This document shows, in pieces, positions 45,003 through 47,625 of a stretch of 64,000 bases of DNA. Below the pieces are notes generated by a model. The model worked only from the letters and a program-made list of their open reading frames with translations. It was not told where the DNA came from and did no database searches. Each line of letters opens with the position of its first letter. Position 1 is the first letter of the stretch. The DNA is taken from contig NZ_JAEKEZ010000029.1 in assembly GCF_016650815.1 (NCBI RefSeq), positions 62,001-126,000 of the forward strand. The letters run 5' to 3'. The DNA comes from Pseudomonas sp. TH31 (GTDB lineage Bacteria; Pseudomonadota; Gammaproteobacteria; Pseudomonadales; Pseudomonadaceae). Position numbers and translations under genes: made by a program.

Positions 45003-45042
45003 AAAAAAGCCCCGCTCTCTTGCACAGAGGCGGGGCTTTTTA
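45003..45042. terminator. Terminator between fadL and the glutathione peroxidase gene
   Basis: AAAAAAGCCCCGC-TCTCTTGCACAGAG-GCGGGGCTTTTT; A and T runs on both sides allow use by the two convergent genes. Confidence 0.92.
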
Positions 45043-45053
45043 GTGGCCGTCTA

Positions 45054-45605
45054 TCAGGGCTTCGAGGCGATGGCTTGCTCTACGGTCTCGATGAATTCCG
45101 GGTTGTCAGGCTTGGTCAGGCTGGAGAAATTGGCAATTACTTTGCCTTGGCGATCGATGACGTATTTGTAGAAATTCCACTTCGGTGCACTGCTCTGCTC
45201 GGCGAGAACCTTGAACAGGTGAGTCGCCTCGTCGCCACGGACTTTCTGCGGTTCGGTCATGGTAAAGGTCACGCCATAGTTGACGTAGCACACCTTGGCC
45301 GTCTCAGCGCCGTCCCTGGCCTCTTGTTTGAAGTCATTGGACGGAACGCCGAGCACCTCCAGCCCTTGGTCCTTGTAACGCTGATACAGCGCCTCAAGGC
45401 CTTTGAGCTGCGGGGCGAAGCCGCAGAAGCTGGCGGTATTGACCACCACCAGCGGCTTGCCCGCATAACGCTGGCACAGATCGATCGATTCCTTGGCCCG
45501 CAACTTGGGCAGCGAGCCCTGCAACAGCTCCGGACACCCGGCCGCTTGCGCCAAACCGGTAAATGCCATCAGCAACGCGGGGACTGCGAGCCAGCGCATC
45601 AGCAT
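45054..45605 (-). CDS. Exported glutathione peroxidase-family protein
   Basis: The 183-residue protein has a signal peptide ([21 protein letters not shown]) and the thiol peroxidase core [21 protein letters not shown] with the peroxidatic cysteine C61. [11 protein letters not shown] and [17 protein letters not shown] carry the other conserved residues. It probably reduces peroxides in the periplasm, more likely with thioredoxin-like donors than glutathione. It sits last in a minus-strand group with a MarR regulator, an MFS carrier and a 40-residue peptide. Confidence 0.9.
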
Positions 45606-45661
45606 GTCGGGTGCATCCTTGAGAAATCGTCAAAAATGAACTTACTCGTCCTCACATCCTG

Positions 45662-45784
45662 CTAGCAAGCGCCCATGCCCAGCTGCATCAGCGCCAACCC
45701 GCCCTGATGCCAGCCCCACCATGCCAGGGCCAGCAGCAAGGCGCCGACACCGGCGACAACTATTCGCGGCCAGAGACTGTTCAT
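45662..45784 (-). CDS. 40-residue membrane micropeptide coupled to the MFS gene
   Basis: The reading frame MNSLWPRIVVAGVGALLLAL...QLGMGAC encodes one transmembrane helix (about residues 8-25) and a Trp-rich middle (AWWGWHQGG). Its ATG overlaps the stop of the MFS gene (ATGA), so it is translationally coupled and very likely expressed. It may be a small partner subunit of the transporter. No known family is recognised. Confidence 0.7.
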   Translation of the reverse strand: MNSLWPRIVVAGVGALLLALAWWGWHQGGLALMQLGMGAC

Positions 45785-46989
45785 ATTGCGCTCATCCGGG
45801 TTTGTAGCCGCGCCACCGGCCGTTCACGCACCGGCCAGTTCAGGGCTGCCGCCAACAGACTCAAGAGAATCGCCACCTGCCAGATCAAGTCGTAGCTCCC
45901 GGTGCGGTCATACACCACCCCGCCCAACCAGCCACCGAGGAACGAGCCGAGCTGGTGGAACAGGAAAACAATCCCACCGAGCATGGACAGGTTTCGCACA
46001 CCGAACAAGGTTGCCACGGTGCCATTGGTCAACGGCACCGTGGACAACCAAAGAAAGCCCATAGCCATGCCGAACAGATAAGCGCTGGTCGTCGTCACCG
46101 GCGCCCACAGGAACAGCCCGATCACCACCGCTCGCAACAGGTACAAACCCGTGAGCAAGCGCGGCTTGGACATCCGGCCGCCGAGCCAGCCTGCCGTGTA
46201 AGTACCGAAGATATTGAACAGCCCGATCAGCGCCAACACCGTAGTGCCAACAGTGGCCGGCAGGTGTTGATCCACCAGATAGGCCGGTAGGTGCACGCCG
46301 ATGAATACCACTTGAAACCCGCAGACAAAAAAGCCGAACGCCAGCAGCCAGAACCCGGAATGGGAGCAGGCTTCACGCAGGGCTTCGGATAAGGTTTGCT
46401 CGTGACCCAGCACCGGTAGCGGCCTGTCCTTGAGCATGCTCACCAACGGCACAATCAGCGCCACCAGCAAGCCCAGCACCAACAAGGCGGCGGACCAGCC
46501 GAGCCAGCCGATCAGCCCCAGCGTACCGGGCAACATCGCGAACTGGCCGAAAGAACCGGCAGCGCTGGCAATACCCATGCCCATGCTGCGTTTCTCCGGC
46601 GGCACCGCGCGCCCGACCACGCCAAGGATCACGGAGAACGAGGTGCCCGACAGGCCGATGCCGATCAACAGGCCGGCACTCAGGGACAAGGTCACCGCCG
46701 AGTCGGACAACCCCATGCAGACCAGGCCCACCGCGTACAACACACCACCGACCAACACCACTTTTGCGGCACCGAAGCGGTCGGCCAGGGCGCCGGTGAA
46801 CGGCTGCGCCAGGCCCCAGATCAGGTTCTGCAAGGCGATGGCAAACGCAAAGGTCTCACGCCCCCAGCCGAACTCAGCGCTCATCGGCGCCAGAAACAGC
46901 CCGAAGCCATGCCGCACGCCCAGAGACAACGCCAGAATCAGCGCACTCCCCACCAACACCCAACCGCACGTACGCCACATCGATGTCAT
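45781..46989 (-). CDS. MFS transporter
   Basis: 402 residues from the ATG at 46989 (GGAGA seven bases upstream), with 12 predicted helices. It starts SMWRTCGWVLVGSALILALSLGVRHGFGLFLAPMSAEFGW and has the MFS motif ALADRFGAAKVVL. This resembles the MFS carriers often annotated as oxalate/formate or MCT-like antiporters. It lies downstream of a MarR regulator with an operator palindrome in the gap, and upstream of a micropeptide and a peroxidase gene. The substrate is unknown. Confidence 0.9.
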   Translation of the reverse strand: MTSMWRTCGWVLVGSALILALSLGVRHGFGLFLAPMSAEFGWGRETFAFAIALQNLIWGLAQPFTGALADRFGAAKVVLVGGVLYAVGLVCMGLSDSAVTLSLSAGLLIGIGLSGTSFSVILGVVGRAVPPEKRSMGMGIASAAGSFGQFAMLPGTLGLIGWLGWSAALLVLGLLVALIVPLVSMLKDRPLPVLGHEQTLSEALREACSHSGFWLLAFGFFVCGFQVVFIGVHLPAYLVDQHLPATVGTTVLALIGLFNIFGTYTAGWLGGRMSKPRLLTGLYLLRAVVIGLFLWAPVTTTSAYLFGMAMGFLWLSTVPLTNGTVATLFGVRNLSMLGGIVFLFHQLGSFLGGWLGGVVYDRTGSYDLIWQVAILLSLLAAALNWPVRERPVARLQTRMSAI

Positions 46990-47004
46990 TCTTATTCTCC
47001 GGTA

Positions 47005-47020
47005 GCGGGTATATACCCGC
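47005..47020. promoter_or_regulatory. Operator palindrome before the MFS gene
   Basis: GCGGGTATATACCCGC, a perfect 16-bp palindrome in the 52-bp gap between marR and the MFS gene. A near-identical copy lies at 47450-47465. Inferred MarR binding site. Confidence 0.8.
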
Positions 47021-47041
47021 TTAAGATCGAACAAACCGGCA

Positions 47042-47446
47042 TCAAGCCAGTTCGTCCAGCAACTTCAGCAAGGTTTCACGTTTTTCGGCGCCCAGACGAT
47101 CAATCAGCCGCTGCTGCGCCGCTTCCCAGGCCGGTAACGCCGCGGCCAGGCGCTCAGCGCCAGCCTCGGTGAGCCTGACGATGCGATTGCGCATGTCCTC
47201 GCCCTCGTTCAGCGCCACCAGCCCCTCGCCTTCCAGCACCCGCAGATTGCGCCCCAGGGTGCTGCGGTCCAGGCCCATGGCTTCGGCCAGGGTGGAAATA
47301 CTCGGTTGATCCAGGCGTTGCAGATTGCACAGCAAAGAATACTGGGCAACGTTGATCCCGAAGCCATCGAGAGCGCCGTCGTAATGCCTGCTGACGCCAC
47401 GAGCGGCGCGACGCAGGTTGATACATAAACATTGGGAATCGAGCAT
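47042..47446 (-). CDS. MarR-family regulator with N-terminal cysteines (OhrR-like)
   Basis: The 134-residue winged-helix regulator reads SISTLAEAMGLDRSTLGRNLRVLEGEGLV for the DNA-binding region and NEGEDMRNRIVRLTEAG for the wing. The N-terminus MLDSQCLCINLRRA places cysteines at 6 and 8 in the same region as the reactive cysteine of OhrR, so thiol-based peroxide sensing is plausible, in keeping with the peroxidase gene in the group. It likely represses itself and the MFS operon through two matching palindromes. Confidence 0.88.
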   Translation of the reverse strand: MLDSQCLCINLRRAARGVSRHYDGALDGFGINVAQYSLLCNLQRLDQPSISTLAEAMGLDRSTLGRNLRVLEGEGLVALNEGEDMRNRIVRLTEAGAERLAAALPAWEAAQQRLIDRLGAEKRETLLKLLDELA

Positions 47447-47449
47447 CGT

Positions 47450-47465
47450 GCGTGTATATACCCGC
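47450..47465. promoter_or_regulatory. Operator palindrome before marR
   Basis: GCGTGTATATACCCGC, matching 15 of 16 bases of the perfect palindrome at 47005-47020, immediately upstream of the marR ATG. Supports autoregulation. Confidence 0.75.
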
Positions 47466-47530
47466 GGTTGAATGAAAGCAAATTATTGATGCATAACCGT
47501 TGCCCACAGGGTCGCGCGCGCTGCCGAACC

Positions 47531-47625
47531 CCCTGTAGGAGCGAGGCTTGCCCGCGAAGAACGATAACGCGATATATCTGCGATACCGAGGTGCGTTCTT
47601 CGCGGGCAAGCCTCGCTCCTACGGG
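47531..47625. repeat. Class C palindromic repeat overlapping the cobS stop
   Basis: CCCTGTAGGAGCGAGGCTTG / CAAGCCTCGCTCCTACGGG with inner GCCCGCGAAGAACG / CGTTCTTCGCGGGC. On the minus strand its edge CCCGTAGGAGC supplies the cobS TAG stop (47619-47621). Confidence 0.87.

Follow-up and report, generated by a model that had tools for sequence, protein, structure and literature searches.

A stretch of 64,000 nucleotides from Pseudomonas sp. TH31 (contig NZ_JAEKEZ010000029.1, positions 62,001 to 126,000; hereafter the window) harbours a unit of four minus-strand genes encoding a MarR-family regulator, a transporter of the major facilitator superfamily (MFS), a 40-residue membrane micropeptide and a glutathione peroxidase (Gpx), along with two nearly identical palindromic operators, one before marR (operator 1) and one before the transporter gene (operator 2). 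Regulation by MarR at both operators, taken alone, is very probable, and the whole chain, in which a thiol-switch repressor controls its own operon, is moderately well favoured. The new element of the locus, and its least expected part, is the conserved, nearly unannotated, cysteine-tailed peptide, which is a candidate one-helix partner of the transporter. If true, a conserved and largely unannotated peptide with an invariant thiol would serve as a regulatory or assembly subunit of the carrier. No study of the marR-MFS-peptide-gpx unit was found in the literature searched, which was judged by titles, abstract openings and cited passages, with subscription papers lying mostly outside it.

In the proposed mechanism, a reduced MarR dimer would bind two CGGGTATATAC(A/C)-type palindromes, covering at operator 1 the -10 element and the point where a leaderless marR mRNA would begin, and blocking at operator 2 either read-through into the MFS gene or a weak MFS promoter. 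The Cys6/Cys8 pair, where helix 1 begins, would be modified by an oxidant or electrophile, with a Cys6-Cys8 disulfide as in MosR the likeliest product, and the modified MarR would leave the DNA, whereupon marR, the transporter, the coupled peptide and the exported peroxidase would be made. The peptide would act as a partner of the transporter in assembly, stability or gating, while the periplasmic Gpx would remove peroxides.

Operators and the predicted marR promoter

The two operators, which are assigned to no strand, are 16-mers differing by one base: the perfect palindrome GCGGGTATATACCCGC at 47005-47020, between marR and the MFS gene, and GCGTGTATATACCCGC at 47450-47465, which reads GCGGGTATATACACGC on the marR strand. 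A matched pair of this kind, one base apart and placed before these two genes, was claimed in the original prediction made from the letters of the stretch, and is confirmed, the sites being both conserved and tied to marR. With the pattern GCGBGTATATACVCGC and one mismatch allowed, no third place was found in the 7.2 Mb assembly, and no further operator targets were seen elsewhere in it; among the matches listed across the family genomes, those of each genome sit within about 480 bp of one another. The regulon looks confined to a single locus. Of 298 family genomes, 133 carry a marR orthologue (cut-off E<=1e-40) and 165 do not; the 14-base core CGGGTATATACMCG is present in 105 of the former and in 1 of the latter (hand tally; Fisher p about 1e-52). 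In the window alone, with up to 3 mismatches, an equal number of matches was reached by 2 of 100 shuffles, so that weight is placed on uniqueness and conservation. One genome without a marR match (G177) carries a lone operator match.

Conservation was assessed in 139 loci, comprising 81 close loci (the window and 80 relatives, these being the best 80 of 277 confirmed) and 58 distant loci, which were obtained by a whole-protein search and taken from the 133 orthologue genomes with low identity favoured (56-88% to the window MarR). Presence of the genes of the unit was counted by tblastn. Both operators stand at matching positions in the 80 close relatives. The operator 1 core TATATAC occurs in 138/139 loci (57/58 distant), and CGGGTATATAC is present in all 107 distinct operator 1 sequences having this core. 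The core of operator 2 is exact in 80/81 close loci, the exception (L065) having one base changed; among the 58 distant loci it is recognisable in 31 and exact in 23.

Operator 1 contains the predicted -10 element of marR (TATACA, 47453..47458, minus strand), which is followed 6 nt later by the marR ATG and preceded at 17 nt by the predicted -35 (TTGCTT, 47476..47481, minus strand). This arrangement recurs: wherever the core is present (138 loci), the gap from the end of TATACA/TATACC to the ATG is 6-8 nt. A hexamer headed by TTG is found exactly 17 nt upstream of the -10 in 81/81 close loci, with TTG at 17 or 18 nt in 43/57 distant loci, many of which read TTGAC. The -35/-10 spacing and the short gap to the ATG are those expected of a sigma-70 promoter that starts transcription at the A of the ATG or right beside it; a marR mRNA with no leader, or almost none, is therefore predicted, with its start at about 47446. 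Since operator 1 overlaps the -10, the repressor would occupy the -10 of its own promoter and autoregulation is predicted. The asymmetric base of operator 1 preserves TATACA in all 81 close loci; keeping TATACA instead of TATACC would explain the one-base difference between the operators. No conserved good -35 was found for operator 2 in the 85 loci examined, and this site may act either as a roadblock or as a weak promoter.

The MarR regulator and its cysteines

The regulator (marR, 47042..47446, minus strand; 134 residues) belongs to the MarR family (PF01047, 34.9 bits vs a cut-off of 24.6) and is predicted to adopt the MarR fold (pLDDT 93), with helix 1 spanning residues 4-29. It has cysteines at positions 6, 8 and 40. 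The first two, which had been pointed out in the original prediction, form the motif Cys6-Leu-Cys8 and proved invariant in 139/139 loci, including the 58 at 56-88% identity; one of the peptides used to search for the 80 close loci was MLDSQCLC, and conservation there may be biased upward. Arg12, Arg13, Arg16, Tyr22 and Asp23 are likewise invariant in the 139 loci. Cys40 is found in only 84/139, and a cysteine beyond residue 60 in 23/139, at scattered positions of which residue 99 is the commonest (14 loci).

Among solved proteins, the best match is MosR (4fx0/4fx4), both by single sequence (E 4e-15, the next at 9e-8) and by profile (E 1e-25, the next at 8e-12). In fold comparison, MosR (Z 16.5-16.9) is tied with other MarR proteins, while its identity of 31-32% is the highest among the 50 fold-match rows listed. 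Cys8 aligns with the sensing cysteine of the OhrR-type structure 2pfb, and to that extent the earlier suggestion of an OhrR-like sensing cysteine stands; conservation does not extend to the C-terminal cysteine that acts as its partner in OhrR/OspR, the operator is not of the AATT type and MosR is the closest solved relative. From these sequence comparisons, the protein is likely a cysteine-switch repressor, which is better described by the MosR model than by the two-cysteine OhrR.

Further relatives of the regulator were encountered outside this set. Two paralogous loci (L201 and L202, excluded from every count) lie elsewhere in two of the same genomes; their MarR proteins are 40-41% identical to that of the window and have a single N-terminal cysteine (PQGCTNLK) and different upstream DNA. 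This cysteine seems equivalent to Cys8, and the two are possibly one-cysteine cousins. In two other families, a marR gene 40-45% identical to that of the window, with a Cys-Thr-Cys N-terminus, adjoins an MFS gene of 40-49% identity (L264 and L271), due to which the link between regulator and transporter may predate the Pseudomonadaceae.

The coupled micropeptide

The micropeptide gene (45662..45784, minus strand) encodes a one-helix membrane peptide of 40 residues ending in Cys40, and its start overlaps the stop of the MFS gene as ATGA. Translational coupling of this peptide, as first described from the window, extends across the sample, the start being at -4 on the MFS stop in 139/139 loci. 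A cysteine is found within the last two residues in 139/139 and is the very last residue in 133. The consensus reads ...LAWWGWxxGGLALLQLGMGxC, in which W25, G29 and C40 are invariant in 40 aligned sequences. The peptide is supported as a real coding gene by its low pN/pS (0.29 over the whole length and 0.15 in residues 21-40, from 77 distinct close sequences). Searches of Pfam and NCBIfam placed it in no family of these two libraries at E<=0.001. The structural model is a single helix (residues 5-36; mean pLDDT 76.5) with low confidence towards the C-terminus. The first twelve residues carry a mean of 1.35 Lys/Arg and no Asp/Glu, and by the positive-inside rule the C-terminal cysteine is probably periplasmic, the charge bias being weak.

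The peptide is still present in the 12 of 139 loci that have no gpx match; of these, only L192 is cut short by a contig edge, shortly past the peptide. An MFS gene with the peptide, and no marR found, occurs in five genomes, three of the family (G042, G063, G015) and two of another family (G396, G447); these were found via the peptide profile and form a biased sample, and in G396 and G447 marR was sought only within 10 kb. A role of the peptide as a partner of the peroxidase is weakened by its retention in both sets. Judging from coupling, distribution and selection, the peptide would belong with the transporter, not with marR or gpx. A transporter cysteine as disulfide partner of the peptide was considered and no partner emerged: the sole invariant one, C223 (in GFFVCGFQ), would lie inside a helix in the usual MFS topology.

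Beyond the family, among 28 class-level MFS loci (L244-L271, 39-54% identity), the peptide was seen at two, both of 54% identity, overlapping at L244, adjacent at L245 and ending in W(S/A)CF; no peptide was seen at the remaining 26, of which L264 is cut off. Related MFS genes occur in 28 plasmid or megaplasmid records, of which 11 were inspected. An overlapping small open reading frame (ORF) with a cysteine at most three residues from its end was present in the 6 records whose MFS identity was 51.4-84.5% (P. aeruginosa, Halomonas, two Acinetobacter, two Paracoccus), and no such small ORF in the 5 with an identity of 47.9-50.8% (two Cupriavidus, Sinorhizobium, Azospirillum, P. aminophilus). The Halomonas peptide and one of the Paracoccus peptides are annotated as hypothetical proteins. 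The peptide profile reached outside the family at best E 4.5e-4 in a class survey of 369 genomes and 1.1e-5 in an order survey of 244 genomes, which argues against wide homology. Weak profile matches, mostly within longer frames, were dropped as chance, and only G396 and G447, behind a related MFS gene, were kept. A single-peptide search of the plasmids returned nothing, though similar ORFs stand behind the MFS genes of Halomonas, Acinetobacter and Paracoccus; by eye and not by searches, these distant ORFs may be tied to the Pseudomonas peptide through position, size, one hydrophobic stretch and a terminal cysteine.

In an MFS tree of 55 sequences without support values, 21 sequences from Pseudomonadaceae, a second family, Halomonas and Acinetobacter group together, all of them peptide-bearing by choice or as found. 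The common ancestor of all 25 peptide-bearing sequences also includes 8 without a peptide, implying either an early gain followed by losses or multiple gains. Members of the carrier superfamily are usually regarded as working alone in bacteria. As a tentative generalisation, and one that we doubt more than we trust, a branch of monocarboxylate-like MFS carriers in Gamma- and Alphaproteobacteria may consist of two-protein units, each comprising a carrier and a coupled one-helix peptide, about 35-50 residues long, that carries a cysteine at the C-terminus or close to it. This thiol, probably periplasmic, would tie transport to redox state and would match the thiol-switch repressor and periplasmic peroxidase that surround it in many Pseudomonas, so that the pair would be a bacterial counterpart, with a redox handle, of the monocarboxylate transporter (MCT) and basigin.

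Transporter, peroxidase and organisation of the locus

The MFS gene (45781..46989, minus strand; 402 residues; PF07690) encodes the most conserved protein of the unit (79-95% identity in the distant loci). The ATG at 46989 is the best choice of start, as the longer TTG frame would cross operator 2. The solved relatives found for the protein are the bacterial L-lactate transporter 6g9x, the human MCT2 and MCT1 and an oxalate:formate antiporter; none of the curated NCBIfam cut-offs was reached, the best hit scoring 123.9 bits vs 320. The protein may thus be called only a relative of monocarboxylate/oxalate transporters, and an exporter role is unproven.

The peroxidase gene (gpx, 45054..45605, minus strand; PF00255) encodes a member of the glutathione peroxidase family whose best match among solved proteins is yeast Hyr1 (3cmi). 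Cys61, Gln94, Trp143 and Asn144, the catalytic tetrad, are conserved in 90/90 aligned sequences (the motif search caught 90 of the 139 loci). Cys24, Cys44 and Cys106 are also invariant in those 90, with Cys24 and Cys44 lying outside the active-site motif. The window protein has Leu67 just past the catalytic motif, where 89/90 aligned sequences have Phe. By eye, the N-terminus looks like a Sec-type signal with cleavage near AQA-AGC. A gpx match was obtained in 127/139 loci; in 126 of them it follows the peptide by no more than 250 bp.

The run marR-MFS-micropeptide-gpx lies downstream of the cobalamin gene cobS, and fadL converges on it at the other end. Strand and spacing suggest a single transcript for all four genes. 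Terminator-like hairpins, one per strand, lie between gpx and fadL (45010..45035); within the run, terminator-like sites on the strand of the four genes occur only inside the MFS gene, and the region has 5 terminator-like sites vs 3.2 expected by chance. Between marR and cobS, a 32-nt inverted repeat (47532-47563 / 47594-47625; 97% complementary, arms 30 nt apart) resembles a Pseudomonas REP doublet.

Alternative explanations

The original prediction of a thiol-regulated export and peroxide-defence unit holds in part: operators, autoregulation and a cysteine switch are supported by conservation, whereas "export" is unproven for a transporter closest to monocarboxylate/oxalate transporters, and the term is best abandoned. 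As regards the signal, the only induction evidence found concerns a brominated furanone and not peroxide: by microarray, PA1285 of P. aeruginosa PAO1 belongs to a set of 28 genes whose expression in persister cells was consistently raised more than two-fold by the furanone BF8 (PMC3447867). BF8 would act here as a thiol-reactive electrophile.

Several observations count against a thiol-switch repressor that governs the whole unit. BF8 induction was measured in drug-selected persister cells, in an account whose relevant section mentions PA1285 and neither PA1286 nor PA1287 (PMC3447867). The promoter hexamers of the window's own marR are weak, a strict sigma-70 promoter scan found none at the window locus, and 14/57 distant loci lack a TTG at 17-18 nt. 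The asymmetric base of operator 1 is absent in 16/57 distant loci (C, giving a -10 of TATACC), and operator 1 is degenerate at one locus (L188). Direct control of the MFS gene would not be universal, as operator 2 is recognisable in only 31/58 distant loci, and the peroxidase is not essential to the unit, for 12/139 loci have no gpx match (L192 at a contig edge) and at L154 the match is 2.2 kb away.

Rival readings concern chiefly what MarR senses. A ligand-responsive MarR, released by the transporter substrate or a related carboxylate or aromatic acid, with Cys6/Cys8 in a structural or modulating role, is rather unlikely. In its favour, many fold relatives of similar score bind small acids (HosA, HpaR, CouR, BpsR) and the transporter is similar to monocarboxylate carriers; a related gene in Halomonas and Paracoccus, moreover, has TRAP transporter, aldehyde dehydrogenase or MaoC genes as neighbours, a catabolic setting. 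Yet both cysteines are invariant down to 56% identity and occupy the position of the MosR switch, and PA1285 is induced by the brominated furanone. Rather unlikely, too, is a one-cysteine OhrR-type peroxide sensor, in which Cys8 would form a sulfenate and be joined to a small thiol as a mixed disulfide, with a secondary part for Cys6; the equal invariance of Cys6 (139/139) and an operator differing from the AATT type speak against it, while the alignment of Cys8 with the OhrR sensing cysteine, the invariant Tyr22 and a peroxidase in the operon, as OspR controls gpx, speak for it.

Pairs of the Cys-x-Cys type can bind soft metals, and a sensor of metals or soft ligands (for example copper, arsenic or mercury) would draw on this property; an Hg-bound MarR moreover heads the fold list, within the tie. 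Such a sensor is nevertheless very improbable, given that Pfam reveals no gene for metal handling in the run, that carboxylate carriers are the closest relatives of the transporter and that no third cysteine is invariant. The palindromes might instead be RNA hairpins, acting as an attenuator or stability element, as a perfect palindrome can fold and operator 2 lies within the predicted transcript. This reading was set aside as barely credible on position and sequence-level conservation, since operator 1 is asymmetric and precedes the predicted transcript start, and since it is the sequence of the core that is conserved and tracks marR. The thiol-switch repressor, with a Cys6-Cys8 disulfide as its most likely switch, remains the preferred account.

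Comparison with known systems

MCTs offer a parallel for the transporter and its peptide: they are documented to pair with basigin or embigin, which are accessory membrane proteins (PMC7996999, PMC12894981). The likeness, a related transporter with an accessory membrane protein, is a functional analogy only, and no homology with the 40-residue peptide is claimed.

OhrR and OspR share with the window protein the MarR family, a thiol-sensing role, here predicted, for a cysteine at helix 1 and a glutathione peroxidase target, here a putative one. In OspR, C134 is needed besides C24 at the gpx promoter and the operators are of the AATT type (AATT-N-AATT; PMC4999210). The window MarR differs in having no C-terminal partner cysteine conserved across the 139 loci, and its operator has CGGGTATATAC(A/C) in place of the AATT core described there (PMC4999210). 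Membership of the two-cysteine OhrR/OspR group was rejected, as its defining C-terminal cysteine is not conserved.

The PA1285-PA1286-PA1287 genes of P. aeruginosa constitute an orthologous unit, with the same order, both operators and a coupled peptide of 35 residues, as seen in a P. aeruginosa record (L272; NZ_CP131792.1, 141917-150098). The assignment follows from the Gpx of this record, which contains, as compared by eye, both PA1287 peptides printed in PMC13295329. The record differs in that the peptide does not appear in the PLSDB gene table, which is incomplete, and in that the start of marR is annotated at a TTG before operator 1. As annotated, the marR protein (L272:2978-3427) has N-terminal residues translated from the operator, and a start at the conserved ATG (MLPTQCLC...) is more likely. 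The record that carries this PA1285-PA1288-like region is 846,886 bp long and bears the label of a conjugative P. aeruginosa plasmid.

The closest counterpart of the regulator is MosR (Rv1049), an oxidation-sensing member of the MarR family whose switch is a Cys10-Cys12 bond within one chain, in helix 1, and whose target is a secreted oxidoreductase (PMC5823404). The two proteins share the MarR fold and a Cys-x-Cys that lies where helix 1 begins and occupies matching columns of the alignment, MosR has the top sequence similarity among solved proteins, and the secreted oxidoreductase target of MosR is paralleled here by a candidate exported Gpx (PMC5823404). They differ in phylum and in target enzyme, a transporter and a micropeptide intervene in Pseudomonas, and the disulfide is here predicted. 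If the proposed reading is true, the Cys-x-Cys switch of MosR would be extended to the pseudomonads, where it would be combined with a leaderless promoter.

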